DNA from: Candidatus Aminicenantota bacterium
Lineage (GTDB): Bacteria > Acidobacteriota > Aminicenantia > UBA2199
Direction of reading: 5' to 3'
DNA length: 42,504 nt
Assembly: GCA_023135565.1 (NCBI GenBank)
Contig: JAGLSW010000790.1
Span: 1 to 42,504 of the forward strand
Part shown: positions 22,081-31,653 of the stretch, in pieces
Numbering within the stretch: the first letter of the stretch is position 1
Layout of the letters: each line of letters opens with the position of its first letter
Translations under genes and position numbers: made by a program
Notes under the pieces: model-generated
The model's input: the letters and a program-made list of their open reading frames with translations, nothing else
Database searches by the model: none
Told to the model about the DNA's origin: nothing

Positions 22081-22178
22081 TTCTTCGATTTAGGGAGGCT
22101 AAAATGAAGAAATTAAAATCAAATCTTAATTTGATCGTTTTCGTTTTTTTAATGGCTGCTCTAACCGCGGCTATAATG
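22081..22178 (+). repeat. 98-bp direct repeat A1 (propeller 3' end + peptide 5' end)
   Basis: This segment matches 23578-23675 with only a handful of differences. It includes the last codons of a propeller-like gene (TTCTTCGATTTA, then the GGAGG site) and the first 25 codons of the Cys-rich peptide. It shows that a propeller-peptide unit was duplicated here. Confidence 0.8.
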
Positions 22179-22334
22179 CAGCCAATCCTGGTAGCCGGGC
22201 CAACGCAGCCCGTCAAGTGTTCCTCATGGCCATGCACCTGCACTTGTAGGTATTATTGTACATGTTCGGCTGGAGCTGGAACCTGTTCGTGCACATGCGG
22301 CGATGCTACGATAAGCTGCTCATTTCAAGAATGA
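22104..22334 (+). CDS. Cys-rich secreted peptide (76 aa), candidate peptide precursor
   Basis: The peptide starts with a Lys-rich N-terminus and a hydrophobic signal segment (about residues 9-31, ending near LVAGPTQPVK). The mature part is extremely rich in Cys and Thr/Ser: PCTCTCRYYCTC and CSCTCG, ten cysteines in the last 40 residues. The GGAGG site is strong. A beta-propeller gene lies downstream and a truncated second copy sits directly behind it (23601-23690). The arrangement recalls Bacteroides NVEALM-type peptides, which are small, Cys-rich, signal-bearing and placed beside 6-bladed propellers; sequence homology to them is not claimed. It could be a metal-binding, disulfide-rich or modified secreted peptide. 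Confidence 0.7.
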   Translation: MKKLKSNLNLIVFVFLMAALTAAIMQPILVAGPTQPVKCSSWPCTCTCRYYCTCSAGAGTCSCTCGDATISCSFQE

Positions 22335-22512: not shown

Positions 22513-22626
22513 TTATTTTTATTTTAGATTAACAGTAAGTGAGAGGCAAAACGCGCGCGCTAAACAAAAATATCTAACGGCGGGACCGTGATTAGCTTTT
22601 ATAAAGGAGCACCCTATAATTATCGA

Positions 22627-22756
22627 CATAAAAAAAATTCTATATTCCAGGGAGGAAAAATGAAAAAAATATTGTTTTTGATGTTCCTGCTTTTTTTGAT
22701 TGCCTTTTCGTGGGGCGCGGAAAAAGTAGAAAAAATAGTTTTAACAGGCGGGGTGG
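22627..22756 (+). repeat. Direct repeat B1 (propeller 5' end)
   Basis: This is nearly identical to 24166-24294. It covers the leader ATTCTATAT-CCAGGGAGG and the first 32 codons of the propeller gene. It is the intact parent of the truncated copy at 24199-24297. Confidence 0.8.
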
Positions 22757-23604
22757 AGTTTTCCCAAAAAATGGTAGAGAACGATGTGTTCTTTAAATGG
22801 GTTCAAGACTTCGATGTAGATGATAAATACATTTACCTCGCAGATGCCACATATAAGGTGATATTTAAGATCGCTCTCGATTCCGGTAAACTCGAAAGAA
22901 CAATCTCATCAAAAGGGCAGGGTCCGGGCGAACTGGCGTTCCCGGTCAATATATGTGTCAAGAATAATAAAGTTTTTGTAATCGACAAAGGCTTCGGTGG
23001 GATCAAGATATTCGGAGTAGACGGCAGCACTATAAACGAGTTCAAAGTCAGTGGCGCTGTGGGGAGAAGGGGGATTGCCGTTGATGAAAAGGATAATATT
23101 TATATCGGCAATATAATGGACAATACCCTGGTTTCGGTTTACTCTTTAGCCGGTAAGCGGCTCAGGTCTCTTGTAAAGGCTACTGTGGATTTAAAAGATA
23201 AAGACAGCATCAAAAAACGAATATATTGGATTAAGATCGACAAACAAAAAAATATATACGTGCTGTATTTTGTAGCCAGGGAACTCGAGAAATACGATAA
23301 CCAGGGAAAAATGCTGTGGCGCGCCAAAATAGAAAATGATTTATTGGCGGAATACCCGCAGAGTAAAAATCCCGGTTACAGGAACATTTTCGATTTCCAT
23401 ATTTTGGACAATAACGACATTTTAATTGCTCATGCAAAAGGGGGGTGCATCCTGGATACTAACGGAAAATTAAAAAAAGTGATAGAACTTAAAACAGGCT
23501 TAGTTCATTCGTTCGGTTTCATTAAAACAGTGCGCAATAACTTGATAACTCTAAATTTAGCTGAAAAAAATGTGGTATTCTTCGATTTAAGGAGGCTAAA
23601 ATGA
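22660..23604 (+). CDS. Secreted 6-bladed beta-propeller protein
   Basis: The protein is 314 aa with an N-terminal signal peptide (MKKILFLMFLLFLIAFSWGA). The start is fixed by GGAGG five bases before ATG 22660, although the frame stays open to 22588. The body shows repeated propeller strands, 'DVDDKYIYLADATYKVIFKI', KGQGPGELAFPVNI (the G-x-GPGE hallmark of 6-bladed NHL/DUF5128-like propellers), 'KVFVIDKGFGGIKIFG' and 'NIYIGNIMDNTLVSVY'. No enzymatic residues are evident; such propellers usually bind ligands or proteins outside the cytoplasm. Its stop overlaps the ATG of the truncated peptide gene (ATGA), so propeller and peptide were originally coupled. Confidence 0.85.
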   Translation: MKKILFLMFLLFLIAFSWGAEKVEKIVLTGGVEFSQKMVENDVFFKWVQDFDVDDKYIYLADATYKVIFKIALDSGKLERTISSKGQGPGELAFPVNICVKNNKVFVIDKGFGGIKIFGVDGSTINEFKVSGAVGRRGIAVDEKDNIYIGNIMDNTLVSVYSLAGKRLRSLVKATVDLKDKDSIKKRIYWIKIDKQKNIYVLYFVARELEKYDNQGKMLWRAKIENDLLAEYPQSKNPGYRNIFDFHILDNNDILIAHAKGGCILDTNGKLKKVIELKTGLVHSFGFIKTVRNNLITLNLAEKNVVFFDLRRLK

Positions 23605-24857: not shown

Positions 24858-24886
24858 TTGACTTTTCATTTCAAATGAGCTATACT
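24858..24886 (+). promoter_or_regulatory. Strong promoter of the RiPP-like operon
   Basis: TTGACT (24858-24863), an exact 17-base spacer and TATACT (24881-24886) are close to the sigma-70 consensus. Transcription would start near 24893, about 20 bases before the precursor gene, which has its own AAGGAG site. Confidence 0.7.
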
Positions 24887-24915
24887 CAAATTTCCAACCT
24901 TAGTAAGGAGATAAA

Positions 24916-25080
24916 ATGCTAAAGAAATTAAATTGCGATAAAAGTGAAGAGATAAAAAAAGGAAAAACCGATATTTTGGGACCTATCCCCGGCTGTATGT
25001 GGGGATGCGCGCCTTATTGCAGTGACCCACATGCGGGCAGCGGTGAACTGAGTTTTGCATTTGGCGTTATGGAAAGGTAA
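24916..25080 (+). CDS. Candidate RiPP precursor peptide (54 aa, C-x3-C-x3-C core)
   Basis: This short gene lies between a strong promoter and a radical SAM/SPASM gene. A charged leader (MLKKLNCDKSEEIKKGKTD) is followed by ILGPIPG, then the core CMWGCAPYC with Cys 27, 31 and 35, and a Gly/Ser/Phe-rich end (AGSGELSFAFGVMER). There is no signal peptide. The stop is three bases before the maturase start, whose ribosome site lies within this gene's last codons, so the two are translationally coupled. Size, leader/core split and position are those of thioether-forming (sactipeptide/ranthipeptide-like) precursors. I know no family matching this core. Which residues are modified, and whether the leader is cut, cannot be told from sequence. 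Confidence 0.72.
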   Translation: MLKKLNCDKSEEIKKGKTDILGPIPGCMWGCAPYCSDPHAGSGELSFAFGVMER

Positions 25081-25083
25081 TTA

Positions 25084-27177
25084 TTGAATTCACCTATCGA
25101 CGCCGGCAATAACTATTCATATTTACCGGACTTCAATATAATTGTAAACAACGCATTCCTTGATATTTTCTTGAAGAATGCCGAAGATAGAGAAATAAAA
25201 ATAAAAGACACGGATATAAATATTGCCGGTCTAAAAAACAATGTAAAGGATATCAGCCAGGTTTTGTTTGAAGTCACACAGCATTGTAACCTGAAATGTA
25301 GATATTGTGTATATAATGGGGATTATTATTTTGCCCGAAATAAATCCAATTTAAGTTTAGAATTTGAGACAGCCAAAGGATGCTTAGATTATATCAATAA
25401 GTTAATCAGTGCAAGACAAAAAAAGGAACTGACGATTTCATTTTATGGTGGAGAACCGTTATTGAATTCCGATCTAATAAAACGAATAGTTAATTATTCA
25501 AAAGCTTTGTTCGGGAGCTGGAAACTATCATACGCTATTACTACAAATGGAACGAATTTTGATACAGAAATTATAGATTTTTTTATTTCAAATGATTTCC
25601 AGATTCTAATCAGTTTAGACGGTTCTCAAAAAAACCATGATGCAAAACGAATATATCCTGATGGTGAAGGAAGTTTTAAAGACACCTGGGCAAACATCCT
25701 CGAAATAAAAAGGATAAACGAAGAGTATTTCAATAATAAAGTATCTATTTCCGCGACATATTCTCATGATTTGTCTTTGAAAGAAAGCTTCGATTTTTTT
25801 TTGAACAACAAAGTTATTAATAAAAATTTTATCCGCTTCAGTAAAGTGGGGATACTCGATACCGATTATTTCAAGAAACATGATGTTTATCCTGGTAATG
25901 AAAGAGATTTAGATGAAATTTTTTCAAGAATAAAAGAAAAAGTTAAAACTAAAAAAGAGTTAGAAAACTCTATCGAGAACGTATTTTGTAACTTAGACAT
26001 AACAGAACTCGATTTCGATAGATATACAACATTGGCAGGATGCTGTAACTTTTCAAGTAAAGTCTTTATAGATGTGAAAGGACGCTTTCATATATGCGAG
26101 AAGATGAACGATAAGTTTTCTATAGGTAATGTTTATGACGGCTTTGATTTCGATAAGATGCAGGAAATAACGAGACGTTTTGTTTCTATATTTAAGAGGT
26201 ACTGCATGAAATGCGAAGTAAAATTTTTATGCAGTCCATGTTATGTGCCATTTGCCAAGGATGGTAGTTTAAAGTTCGACAGAAAGTTCTGCGAGGCGAG
26301 AAAAAGAACAATTTTTTCAAACTTGAAAGAATATGTAGAATTAAATTGTTTAGCTTTTGAAGCCAGGTGTTCTGTCGATTTATCGAGTGCAAAAAAATTC
26401 CACCAATTTGTAAAGGTTGAGAGAGGGCCGGTGAATACAGCGATTTTTGATTTTTTAAAGGGGAATGTTTTTCAAACAGAAAACAAAGTGATCGATGAAT
26501 TTAATAATTTTGCATACGATAGAATTCCCGATTTCATAAAATCAGCGGCGGAAGAAGAAATTATCATAGATGTTTACCGAAAAGCCTGGATTCCAAAATT
26601 GTACCAGGACGAATCATACCCGGCTTTTATCAATAACATAAATAAAAAAACGTCTTTCCGCTTAGAAATCGAGGCCGGGATAGATATAGGAATTGTAAAA
26701 GAAAAATTTAAAGGTTATGACATCACCCAGGTAATCTATTACGGTGTCAAAAATTCGGAACCGTTCTTTCCCGGCGTAGAAGTAAAGTGCTGCGAAAAAG
26801 ATTTCAGTAAATGCCTGGAGATGTCAAAAATTAACGGTAAATTTAATCGTATAGATCAGGAGCGCTATTATCTAAATAAAAAATTCAATTATTGCTGGGC
26901 ACACAAAGTAGCTGTTACCGGGGATATGAAAATAAGACCCTGTATTTATAGTGAGATCGTCGTGGGTGACTTGAAAGATGATGATATAGACCAACTGTTT
27001 AAGAAAATAAAAAAGCTATGGCATTTAACAAAAGATGAAGTTGAAAAATGTAAGGACTGCGAATTGAGATACTTATGTTTCGATTGCAGGGAACTTGCAA
27101 GAAGAGAGAGTAGTAACTTGTATGCGCCGAATCCTTACTGCAACTACGACCCTTTCACGGGAGTATGGTCGGAATGA
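25084..27177 (+). CDS. Radical SAM/SPASM peptide maturase with C-terminal GwsS-like SPASM domain
   Basis: A 697-aa protein. The radical SAM cluster motif C68-x3-C72-x2-C75 is in THQ-type context (TQHCNLKCRYCVYN), followed by FYGGEPLL and 'SLDGSQKNHD'. A first SPASM domain lies at about 318-420 (GCCNFSSKVFIDVKGRFHIC, then CMKCEVKFLCSPC). After a 150-residue middle part, a second SPASM-like domain (about 600-697) has KIRPCIYSEIVVGDL, KCKDCELRYLCFDCREL and CNYDPFTGVW. This last block closely resembles the SPASM protein of grasp-with-spasm systems (GwsS, TIGR04193). No ATP-grasp is present. The start is TTG 25084 with GGAAAGG eight bases upstream. It presumably crosslinks the Cys-rich precursor; the second half may bind the peptide. 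Confidence 0.87.
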   Translation: MNSPIDAGNNYSYLPDFNIIVNNAFLDIFLKNAEDREIKIKDTDINIAGLKNNVKDISQVLFEVTQHCNLKCRYCVYNGDYYFARNKSNLSLEFETAKGCLDYINKLISARQKKELTISFYGGEPLLNSDLIKRIVNYSKALFGSWKLSYAITTNGTNFDTEIIDFFISNDFQILISLDGSQKNHDAKRIYPDGEGSFKDTWANILEIKRINEEYFNNKVSISATYSHDLSLKESFDFFLNNKVINKNFIRFSKVGILDTDYFKKHDVYPGNERDLDEIFSRIKEKVKTKKELENSIENVFCNLDITELDFDRYTTLAGCCNFSSKVFIDVKGRFHICEKMNDKFSIGNVYDGFDFDKMQEITRRFVSIFKRYCMKCEVKFLCSPCYVPFAKDGSLKFDRKFCEARKRTIFSNLKEYVELNCLAFEARCSVDLSSAKKFHQFVKVERGPVNTAIFDFLKGNVFQTENKVIDEFNNFAYDRIPDFIKSAAEEEIIIDVYRKAWIPKLYQDESYPAFINNINKKTSFRLEIEAGIDIGIVKEKFKGYDITQVIYYGVKNSEPFFPGVEVKCCEKDFSKCLEMSKINGKFNRIDQERYYLNKKFNYCWAHKVAVTGDMKIRPCIYSEIVVGDLKDDDIDQLFKKIKKLWHLTKDEVEKCKDCELRYLCFDCRELARRESSNLYAPNPYCNYDPFTGVWSE

Positions 27178-27207
27178 AGTTAAATGATTTAGTAAAGGAG
27201 TCCTTCG

Positions 27208-28212
27208 ATGCGTAAAGTAATATTTCTTTGTTTGACACTTTTTTTTGTGAACTCATTAAATGCCGCTAAAATAGCCTCACTTCCAGGAATTTTAAAACCG
27301 GAAGAAATCAACGTGGATGAAAACCGGGTGTATATTTCTAACCAAAATGGAGTGTCGGTCTTTTCACCCGGTAAACTTAAGCTTACCGGGAAGATAGGGA
27401 AAAGAGGCGAAGGTCCTGGAGAATTTCTTTTCACGCCGCACGTGCAAATTTTAACCGGCACACTATTTCTTTACACATCCCGGAAATTTTCATTTTTTAA
27501 TAAGGCAGGAGAATTACAGGAGGAGAAATCATTATCTTTCCCCGTTTTAAACGCCAACTCTATCGGCAGTAACTACATAACAAATCAATGGACCTATGTC
27601 GATAACCGGGCTTTCTCCGAGATAATTTTGTACGACCGGGATCTAAAGAAGATTAAATCTCTTCATAAAAGCAAGAAAGAAGTAAATATAAAAAAAATCT
27701 TTGAAAAGATACCTTTTGTTTCTCATGTGTTAAAATTCCAGTGCTGGGGCAATAAAATATACTTCATGGACAGCAAAAAAGGATTTGTTATCGAAGTATA
27801 TGATGCGTCCGGGAATCATCTTTCGACCATTAGACGGGAATATGAAAAAATTAAGATCACCTCATCCGATAAGAAAAGAATAATAGAAGAATTCAAGAAC
27901 AAACCTTTCGTAAAAAACCGCTGGTCATTTCTTAAAAAATATGCCGACAAATTCGAGAGCATGTTCCCGGAATATTTCCCGGCAGTTGATGATTTCATTG
28001 TCACCGATGATAAAATTTATGTCAAAACTTATAAAAGCCAAAATAAAAAAGATGAATATATAATCCTTGGCCTTAATGGTGACATCGAGAAGAGGGTATT
28101 CCTTCCCTGGGTGGGGAATCGTTTATATTCGATTAAGAATGGCAGGTTCTATTATCTCCGGGAAAACGAAGAAGCGGAGTTATGGGAATTGCACAGTATG
28201 GATATTAAGTAA
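27208..28212 (+). CDS. Secreted 6-bladed beta-propeller protein, RiPP operon
   Basis: A 334-aa protein with a signal peptide (residues 1-19, VIFLCLTLFFVNSLNA) and the hallmark GKRGEGPGEF near residue 72. Propeller strands recur ('RVYISNQNGVSVFSPG', 'KIYFMDSKKGFVIEVYDASG', 'KIYVKTY'). It starts 30 bases after the maturase with an AAAGGAG site, so it belongs to the same operon. It lacks a lipobox, unlike the propeller at 30315. A role in binding or displaying the modified peptide outside the cytoplasm is conceivable, but rests only on position. Confidence 0.82.
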   Translation: MRKVIFLCLTLFFVNSLNAAKIASLPGILKPEEINVDENRVYISNQNGVSVFSPGKLKLTGKIGKRGEGPGEFLFTPHVQILTGTLFLYTSRKFSFFNKAGELQEEKSLSFPVLNANSIGSNYITNQWTYVDNRAFSEIILYDRDLKKIKSLHKSKKEVNIKKIFEKIPFVSHVLKFQCWGNKIYFMDSKKGFVIEVYDASGNHLSTIRREYEKIKITSSDKKRIIEEFKNKPFVKNRWSFLKKYADKFESMFPEYFPAVDDFIVTDDKIYVKTYKSQNKKDEYIILGLNGDIEKRVFLPWVGNRLYSIKNGRFYYLRENEEAELWELHSMDIK

Positions 28213-28300
28213 ACCCGGGTGGGATGAATGCTGGGGTTGGAGTAAAGGTTTCGTCATCACCACTGCCGAAAACTGATCCCACGGGAACTATTATCTACAA

Positions 28301-28453
28301 GAAATGGGGCGGTGCGTGCAAACGTGCAAATTTGCACAAAAAAGATCAGGGAAACGGGACAGGCTAAAAAAAACGACCCGGTGGTTCAGGTATAGAAAGT
28401 TCCAGGCTTACAGGTAAATACCGGGTCGAAAGTTTGAGTACCCGAACACCCTG
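28301..28453 (+). repeat. 153-bp repeat, copy 1 (left border of exporter cassette)
   Basis: GAAATGGGGCGGTGCGTGCA opens the repeat and CCCGAACACCCTG ends it. It has only four mismatches to 31501-31653 in the same orientation. Inside are the inverted pair CGACCCGGT/ACCGGGTCG (28374-28382 and 28420-28428) and GGGACAGG, the core of the RAYT element ends. The rest of the 28213-28566 gap shows no gene. Confidence 0.88.
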
Positions 28454-28566: not shown

Positions 28567-30315
28567 CTAAACATTAAATTGATTATTAAAGAGTTGGGTG
28601 TAAAAATCCCCTTTATCCAATAATTCCCGGTGCGTCCCGGTTTCTATTATCTCGCCATCCTTCATCACTACTATTTCATCAGCGGCTAAAATCGTAGATA
28701 ACCGATGGGCGATCACCAACACTATCTTCCCTTTCTTGATCTTTTTAATGGTTTCCAGGATCAATTGTTCCGATTTGGAATCGATCGACGAAGTTGGCTC
28801 ATCGAGTATTAAAATAAGCGGTTTCTTTAACAAACAGCGGGCTACACCTATACGCTGTTTCTCGCCAACCGATAATTTAACTCCCCGTTCACCTACTCTC
28901 GTTTGATACTTTTCCGGTAGATTCGAGATAAAATTGTGCGCATTGGCTAATTTTGCCGCTTCATATATTTCTGCTTCACTGCTGTTTTTATTGCCAAACC
29001 CTATATTCTCCAGGATAGTATCATCGAACATAAAAGGCTCCTGCCCCACTATCCCGACTAAACGCCTCACGGATTTTAAATCTGAACAAGCAATGTCCCG
29101 ATTGTTTATTAATAACGTACCGTTTCGAGGCTCAAAAAAACGGGGGATCAGGTTGACTAGAGTTGTTTTTCCTACTCCGCTCGGTCCCACCAGGGCAGTG
29201 ATTTTCCCGTTTTCAACATCAAAATTTATATCCTTTAATACGTCTTTTTCACCATCATAGGAGAACGAAACGTTCTCAAACTTTATCACCGGGGGCTGAT
29301 ATGGGACTTCTACCGGTTCATTCGATATGTTCGCCTCCGGTTTAATTTCCAATAATTCATAGATTCTTTCTAAGGATGCCAACCCCCTCTGCACCGTCGT
29401 ATTGATATACAAGAAACGCCGGGCCGGGCCATACATGTACCCCAGGAAACTACTAAAAGCCACAAGACCACCCAGGCTAAGGTTGTTATTCATAACTTCG
29501 TAACCACCGTAACCTAAAACGGTAAGAGGCCCGAGAGCAGCAATAAGTAAATTTATCGTGTCCGCTTTGATCTGTAAAAAAGAAGACTTGATACTGGCTT
29601 CTTTTACTTCATCAAGCGAAGCGATGATTTTATTGTGCTGGAACTTTTCTTGCAGGAATGTTTTGATATAAAAAATTCCGCCGAAACTCTCCTGGAAATC
29701 TTTGGTGGTGACAGCGGATTTTTCTTGATAAATTTTCTGGTAGTTTCTTATTTTTTTATTGAACACTGTCAAAGACAGCACAAAAAAAGGGAAAATTACC
29801 AGGGACACAAGAGCTAATTTCCAGTGCAGAAAGAATATAACCACAATTCCCACTAAAAAGGTGAACACATCTCTCAGGACATTCAATATGGTATCTCCCA
29901 ACAAAGATTGAATCGCCCAGGTGTCATCCCTGATCCTGGCGGCTAAATAAGATGTTTGCGTGGAGTGAAAAAAAGTTAGAGGTAATTCCTGTACGTGTTT
30001 AAACAAGAGGGAGTTGATTTCTAATATGGCCTGTTCTTTGAAATAGATAAGGTAACGTGCTTGCATATAACTGGAAAATGTCTTTAAAATGTGTACCCCG
30101 AATAGACTCAGGATGATGACAAACAGCAGGTTAAATTTATTTGTAATAAAGACATCGTCGATTAAGTATTTGGTCACCAGGGGCAGGGGCAATTCCAGCA
30201 GCACCGAAACCATGAGAAAAATCCCGGCTTTAAAAATTTTATCTTTGAATTTGCTTATTAGCTGCCAGAATCTTTTTAAGTTGACAATATAGTATTTCAG
30301 GTTTATCTTGAACAT
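28567..30315 (-). CDS. ABC exporter (fused membrane and ATPase domains)
   Basis: A 582-aa half-transporter of the MsbA/peptide-exporter type. Six membrane helices lie within about residues 25-310, followed by a complete ATPase: GPSGVGKTT (Walker A), VGQEPFMFDD (Q-loop), LSVGEKQR, LILILDEPTSSID (Walker B) and IAHRLS (H-loop). The signature is LSVGE instead of LSGGQ, a change common in one half of asymmetric exporters. No peptidase C39 domain is present, so it would not cut a leader itself. Its ATG overlaps the stop of the propeller lipoprotein (TAATG), showing coupling. Being next to the RiPP operon, though on the opposite strand, it is the natural candidate for export of the peptide; lipid or drug export is possible. 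Confidence 0.85.
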   Translation of the reverse strand: MFKINLKYYIVNLKRFWQLISKFKDKIFKAGIFLMVSVLLELPLPLVTKYLIDDVFITNKFNLLFVIILSLFGVHILKTFSSYMQARYLIYFKEQAILEINSLLFKHVQELPLTFFHSTQTSYLAARIRDDTWAIQSLLGDTILNVLRDVFTFLVGIVVIFFLHWKLALVSLVIFPFFVLSLTVFNKKIRNYQKIYQEKSAVTTKDFQESFGGIFYIKTFLQEKFQHNKIIASLDEVKEASIKSSFLQIKADTINLLIAALGPLTVLGYGGYEVMNNNLSLGGLVAFSSFLGYMYGPARRFLYINTTVQRGLASLERIYELLEIKPEANISNEPVEVPYQPPVIKFENVSFSYDGEKDVLKDINFDVENGKITALVGPSGVGKTTLVNLIPRFFEPRNGTLLINNRDIACSDLKSVRRLVGIVGQEPFMFDDTILENIGFGNKNSSEAEIYEAAKLANAHNFISNLPEKYQTRVGERGVKLSVGEKQRIGVARCLLKKPLILILDEPTSSIDSKSEQLILETIKKIKKGKIVLVIAHRLSTILAADEIVVMKDGEIIETGTHRELLDKGDFYTQLFNNQFNV

Positions 30316-31417: not shown

Positions 31418-31500
31418 GCCCTTTTTCCAAAAAATACTCTGTTCCGGCAGGTTGGAAGTCTATCGGCAAAAAAGGAAGAAATGGGGCGGTGCGTGCAGAA

Positions 31501-31653
31501 GAAATGGGGCGGTGCGTGCAAACGTGCAAACTTGCACAAAAAAGATCAAGGAAAGGGGACAGGCTAAAAAAAACGACCCGGTGGTTCAGGTATAAAAAGT
31601 TCCAGGCTTACAGGTAAATACCGGGTCGAAAGTTTGAGTACCCGAACACCCTG
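31501..31653 (+). repeat. 153-bp repeat, copy 2 (right border of exporter cassette)
   Basis: It is a direct copy of 28301-28453 with four mismatches. An extra partial unit of the opening 20 bases (AGAAATGGGGCGGTGCGTGC) lies directly before it at about 31478-31497, as if replication slipped or two elements met. The CGACCCGGT/ACCGGGTCG inverted pair is conserved. Confidence 0.88.

Follow-up and report, generated by a model that had tools for sequence, protein, structure and literature searches.

Many loci for ribosomally synthesized and post-translationally modified peptides (RiPPs) encode a second SPASM protein. Why they do so is an open question that is posed in a single operon by the stretch of DNA analyzed here (the window), a contig of 42,504 nucleotides from a Candidatus Aminicenantota bacterium whose source assembly comprises 7.6 Mb in 1,261 contigs. 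The locus consists of plus-strand genes for a 54-residue peptide (24916-25080), a 697-residue maturase that starts with TTG three nucleotides past the peptide stop codon (25084-27177), and a secreted six-bladed beta-propeller of 334 residues that follows in the same operon after a gap of 30 nucleotides (27208-28212; PF17170). The initial annotation gave this layout and its coordinates correctly but took the middle gene for a simple radical S-adenosylmethionine (SAM) maturase. Judged from its sequence, the 697-residue protein is instead a canonical radical SAM maturase with a seven-cysteine SPASM domain, fused to a second SPASM protein; this fusion, overlooked in the first reading, is the most unusual feature of the locus. 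Nature seems here to have made the deletion of the partner's radical SAM core, and the partner is joined to the active enzyme in six loci. Because a partner lacking this core is fused to an active enzyme, one gene and one peptide suffice for a direct test of its role. The locus probably makes a thioether hairpin peptide of the sactipeptide kind, by means of an enzyme that would correspond to TrnC plus a reduced TrnD in a single chain.

A family of precursor peptides

The peptide (MLKKLNCDKSEEIKKGKTDILGPIPGCMWGCAPYCSDPHAGSGELSFAFGVMER) is made up of a leader (residues 1-26), a cysteine ladder (C27-x3-C31-x3-C35, 24994-25020) and a tail of 19 residues. A Shine-Dalgarno site (AAGGAG, plus strand, 24905-24910) lies 5 nucleotides 5' of its ATG, and equivalent sites stand before the other precursors of the family. 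The near-consensus promoter claimed earlier is present on the plus strand at 24858-24886 (TTGACT-N17-TATACT) as a consensus match alone, at 10 of 12 positions, but it does not rise above chance for the region, in which 13 such sites were found against 12.3 expected from shuffled sequence. Since the region holds no excess of these sites, this one counts by its position only.

The open reading frame (ORF) is short and matches no family in NCBIfam or Pfam, as would be expected if it were not a gene at all, or a chance ORF unrelated to the maturase. Its recurrence argues otherwise. A profile of the N-terminal half of the maturase (the N half) retrieved 21 family maturases from 9 of 142 genomes of the class, with scores of 401-655 bits, while other radical SAM proteins reached at most 327 bits; matches fell inside the class only, with none beyond it in a sample of 396 genomes of the phylum. 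The genomes surveyed were fragmentary metagenome-assembled genomes, and family members beyond the class may have escaped notice, because named genomes were covered only as far as the matches listed. Searches of the open literature turned up no report of a RiPP from Aminicenantes. At 18 of the 21 maturases there is an upstream peptide of 46-69 residues that has a Shine-Dalgarno site and starts with MLKKLT or a similar sequence. Fifteen of the 18 carry an exact CX3CX3C, two C-x4-C-x3-C and one C-x3-C-x2-C, as compared with CX3CX3C in 22 of 2,210 background small ORFs (about 1%). A profile built without the window peptide recovered that peptide from among about 10,400 small ORFs at E=1.8e-4, and in leave-one-out scoring 18 of 21 seeds, the window's included, were recovered at E<=1.8e-4.

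Selection points the same way. Both in paralogue pairs and across the family, leaders are conserved while cores vary save for their cysteines, at each of which both TGC and TGT occur. Leader dN/dS came to 0.09/1.24 (~0.07) in one paralogue pair and 0.10/0.42 (~0.23) in another; a third pair, with few changes, gave 0/0.08. The initial annotation had suggested looking before homologous maturases for such a peptide with conserved spacing and leader, and for purifying selection on its frame, and both were found, the selection in the leaders; recurrence, cysteine spacing and leader selection all agree with its view of the peptide as maturase substrate and RiPP precursor, the modification itself being something that we infer. 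Sequence comparison thus supports the reading of the 54-residue peptide as the precursor of a RiPP, coupled with the maturase. The chance-ORF explanation, very improbable given the recurrence with Shine-Dalgarno sites and conserved spacing, the leader similarity, the leave-one-out result and the purifying selection, was rejected.

The nearest relative of the window peptide, found in another genus (locus L169), has the core CVWACLPQC and shares with it GC[MV]W[GA]CxPxC and a GELS after the core, 12 of the 22 identical residues being encoded by different codons. Trp and Pro between the cysteines, noted earlier as a feature of the pattern, do not characterize the family: one or the other occurs in a minority of the 24 precursors, this relative having both. 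The tail after the third cysteine is short, with a median of 19 residues and a range of 16-23 in 22 of the 24; it starts out polar and prone to turns and becomes more hydrophobic toward its end (33% versus 53%; permutation p=1e-4). No member tested matched an NCBIfam or Pfam family, the precursor of locus L029 scoring 17 bits against a cut-off of 25 for the model of the Bacteroidales GG system. In two loci precursors are multiplied: in L177 (1839-4214) one maturase pair is preceded by five CX3CX3C precursors, between which lies a gene resembling class I glutamine amidotransferases, and L176 (4910-14153) holds one fused and two split maturases, an extra partner gene and four precursors within 9 kb.

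The two halves of the maturase

The N half (25084-26370, plus strand; residues 1 to about 425) is a radical SAM/SPASM peptide maturase with CX3CX2C at residues 68-75 and a seven-cysteine SPASM domain at residues 321-403. The spacing of this SPASM domain, C-x11-G-x4-C-x35-C-x2-C-x5-C-x2-C-x16-C, agrees in order and nearly in spacing with the TrnC motif Cx11Gx4Cx36Cx2Cx5Cx2Cx14C. The C-terminal half (the C half; 26371-27177, plus strand) corresponds at residues 435-697 to a second protein, with an RRE-like (RiPP recognition element) N-terminus and its own seven-cysteine SPASM domain at residues 604-686; it contains CX2CX5C but no CX3CX2C. The 697-residue protein is read as two proteins in one because relatives encode the halves as neighboring genes: they adjoin in 12 loci (about 430 and 270 residues) and are fused in six, and the N-half tree requires at least two changes between the fused and split states.

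The C half has homologues among separate partner proteins. It aligns over its full length with radical SAM/SPASM partners of 380-414 residues whose genes follow that of the maturase in Firmicutes and methanogens (99.8% probability, E=2e-29), their CX3CX2C stretch being the part that is missing, and over the SPASM region it matches the partner in the huazacin-type locus L116 (97.7% probability). Its best NCBIfam match is TIGR04193 (grasp-with-SPASM), at 76 bits against a cut-off of 175. Because the C halves were wrongly placed on the first SPASM domain when distant halves were aligned to the entire fusion, the C half was modelled alone with AlphaFold2; the SPASM part was predicted well (pLDDT about 80-87), and the start of the protein is modelled as three strands and a helix resembling an RRE. 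From these comparisons, the C half seems to have shed its radical SAM core, whereas its RRE-like region and an entire SPASM domain were retained. In two loci (L180, 375-1427; L181, 6582-7589) genes resembling hexapeptide-repeat acyltransferases, possibly tailoring enzymes, lie directly after the SPASM partner.

Taken together, these features suggest how the locus might work. The peptide would be the substrate, with residues 1-26 as leader and the cysteines at i, i+4 and i+8 as sulfur donors; the acceptors, by analogy, would lie in the hydrophobic C-terminal tail at about residues 43-53, allowing up to three nested crosslinks. A cysteine ladder followed by a hydrophobic tail is compatible with N-terminal donors and C-terminal acceptors, which is not proof of them. 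The 697-residue enzyme would be a single-chain version of a TrnC/TrnD-like two-enzyme complex, its N half performing the radical chemistry and its C half holding the leader and/or supporting cluster chemistry, and the propeller would act following export, either in the periplasm or on the surface of the cell. This scheme builds on gene order, conservation, domain content, the homology of both halves and purifying selection on the leader; the modification, the bond type, the acceptor positions, the roles of C half and propeller and the export route are what it proposes.

Several observations weigh against it. The precursor seeds were chosen by eye among upstream ORFs, which is why leave-one-out scoring was run; that scoring misses two of the 21 seeds (L045, L033) and recovers a third (L031) weakly. 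The profile found no precursor at three of the 21 maturases, one of which (L180) is accompanied by an MLKKI peptide whose cysteine pattern differs, and the ERxA motif found near the leader end in many other precursors is absent from the window leader. With a mean pLDDT of 59, the C-half model is poor beyond the SPASM domain and the initial strands, and a fold search with it gave no significant match, CteB ranking first with SuiB close behind. The N half, finally, resembles models of sactipeptide (RumMC), ranthipeptide (PapB) and CcpM maturases and passes no NCBIfam cut-off.

This last point bears on the bond type, which is not readable from the sequence because the N half scores alike to models with different bond types. 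The same RiPP locus might then install non-alpha thioethers of the ranthipeptide type or another radical SAM crosslink, for example via the Trp of CMWGC, and SPASM families with differing bond types do score close together (CcpM 219, GG_samocin 187, PapB 160 and RumMC 156 bits, all far under cut-off). The precursors, however, show neither regular CX3D/E repeats nor the six-cysteine SCIFF pattern, Trp is found in a minority of cores, and a CX3CX3C ladder whose tail is short and hydrophobic agrees with nested alpha-thioether hairpins, so that a non-alpha product is a minority prospect, though one to be reckoned with.

The propeller and its surroundings

The window propeller passes the PF17170 gathering score narrowly (24.8 versus 22.9 bits), and a fold search with its low-confidence model led to NHL propellers (E=3e-8). 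A propeller lies directly after the maturase in five of the six fused loci; directly after three other fused maturases stand homologues of the window protein (35-39% identity), and after a fourth a more distant one, while about half of all loci show no propeller beside the maturase. The propeller had earlier been described as a partner matching no known family, but PF17170 (DUF5128) propellers also flank radical SAM RiPP loci of Bacteroidales, standing directly beside TIGR04148-like maturases in L105, L106, L108 and L118. The association of propellers with radical SAM loci is therefore wider than the window locus, and DUF5128 propellers are tied to radical SAM peptide loci in two phyla; no paper discussing this link turned up in a literature search. 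When window-type propellers were compared by profile with Bacteroidales propellers and with the lipoproteins encoded in non-fused loci, no relation among them was supported, and for this reason the lipoproteins are not called propellers here. A role of the propeller in periplasmic binding, immunity or sensing is a guess.

The recurrence of the propeller after fused maturases could also mean that the crosslinked peptide is a structural subunit or a cofactor-bearing peptide of the propeller, in the way that quinohemoprotein amine dehydrogenase combines QhpC with the beta-propeller QhpB. There is thus a precedent for a small crosslinked subunit that pairs with a propeller (PMC8172795), and the maturase scores 115 bits against the QhpD model TIGR03906. 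However, the cores vary strongly beside conserved leaders, five precursors occur in a single locus, roughly half of the loci lack an adjoining propeller, no heme subunit is present, and the propeller belongs to a different family, which together make a subunit role unlikely. The hairpin-peptide reading can be extended, more tentatively than it is itself held, to a new architecture in which a single radical SAM domain is combined with two complete SPASM domains (potentially five iron-sulfur clusters). This architecture would have arisen when a TrnD-like, catalytically dispensable partner shed its radical SAM core and was subsequently joined to the active enzyme on at least two occasions, and its hairpin products would act with dedicated periplasmic propellers in Candidatus Aminicenantes.

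Convergent to the locus, on the minus strand, are an ATP-binding cassette (ABC) exporter without a C39 peptidase (28567-30315) and, upstream of it, a lipoprotein propeller (PF17170; 30315-31340, minus strand) whose belonging to the system is uncertain. The exporter is one among many similar exporters in these genomes and for that reason is a candidate only. This pair is bracketed by 155-bp direct repeats (28299-28453 and 31499-31653, 97% identical), which are the only full-length copies, short pieces being scattered in the genome. On the other side of the locus, a secreted Cys-rich peptide of 76 residues (22104-22334; signal peptide, then CSSWPCTCTCRYYCTCSAGAGTCSCTC) is followed by a propeller (22588-23604), with no radical SAM gene and with clear homologues in its own genome only; direct repeats at 22081-22178/23578-23675 (94%) and 22620-22758/24159-24297 (93%) mark a partly decayed tandem duplication of this peptide-propeller unit. 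Elsewhere in the same genome (L017, 795-1262), a tandem pair of peptides whose leaders are of the double-glycine type (KLALNKSTIAKLDPQDKIKIKGG) lies near a partial radical SAM match and a lipoprotein, possibly a GG-type locus.

Comparison with known systems

The cysteine pattern had been held to match no known family. CX3CX3C has, however, been described as the signature of thuricin CD from Bacillus thuringiensis (PMC3132745), and huazacin-type peptides contain C-x3-C ladders as well. In thuricin CD the donors C13, C9 and C5 are linked in that order, with TrnA joined C13-S21 and C9-T25; TrnC and TrnD form a tight complex held via their RRE regions, the radical chemistry of TrnC is essential, and TrnD, which was modelled mainly on the leader, is required while its own radical SAM cluster is dispensable (PMC12093266). 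The window locus has the same ladder and the seven-cysteine SPASM motif of the catalytic enzyme, and its two SPASM-type proteins may be likened to the two that there act on the peptide as one complex. It differs in a partner that lacks the radical SAM core and has a full seven-cysteine SPASM domain in place of the three-cysteine twitch of TrnD, in the fusion of that partner to the main enzyme in the six loci, in its charged MLKKLT-type leaders, in the propeller of its operon and in phylum. Among TrnD homologues both CX3CX2C and CX2CX5C are 100% conserved (PMC3132745). The window locus is not filed with the thuricin CD family, because its partner lacks CX3CX2C and its bond type is inferred only.

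Thuricin Z/huazacin (ThzC, ThzD; NF037972 precursors) shares the C-x3-C ladder, two radical SAM/SPASM genes and ABC transporters, and locus L116, whose precursor scores over the huazacin-family cut-off, encodes homologues of both halves of the window maturase. It differs in its four cysteines, its partner with CX3CX2C and its enzymes ThzC and ThzD, reported active independently; Cys4, 8, 12 and 16 pair there with residues 38, 34, 30 and 26 in a nested hairpin (PMC8172795). The Bacteroidales GG system (maturase TIGR04148, precursor TIGR04149, pseudo-radical SAM protein TIGR04150) has in several loci a radical SAM-like partner without CX3CX2C, and DUF5128 propellers by its maturase. Its double-glycine leaders, Gly/Cys-rich cores and, in some loci, C39 exporters set it apart, its partner is not clearly related to the window C half (27% probability), and literature searches on TIGR04148, pseudo-rSAM and NVEALA returned no papers. 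Membership was rejected: the window maturase scores 187 bits to TIGR04148 (cut-off 300), below every model cut-off, and the window precursor does not match.

More distant systems were likewise set aside. CcpM (TIGR04068), a maturase of Cys-rich peptides, the best NCBIfam match of the N half and a model that spans that half only, was rejected at 219 of 500 bits. SCIFF was rejected since the family mostly has three core cysteines as against six in about 45 residues, and the maturase scores 102 bits to TIGR03974 (cut-off 425); a PapB-type CX3D ranthipeptide was rejected as the pattern shared by the 24 precursors is CX3CX3C. The TIGR04193 system also uses a SPASM protein in peptide maturation, but by its name this is paired with an ATP-grasp enzyme rather than a radical SAM maturase. 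By analogy, the window enzyme looks like the end point of a TrnC/TrnD-like pair, its partner shorn of a dispensable radical SAM core and both held in one chain. The locus is thus best read as working like a two-enzyme sactipeptide system, with a maturase of unusual architecture and with 24 precursors that, as far as they were tested, go unannotated by NCBIfam.

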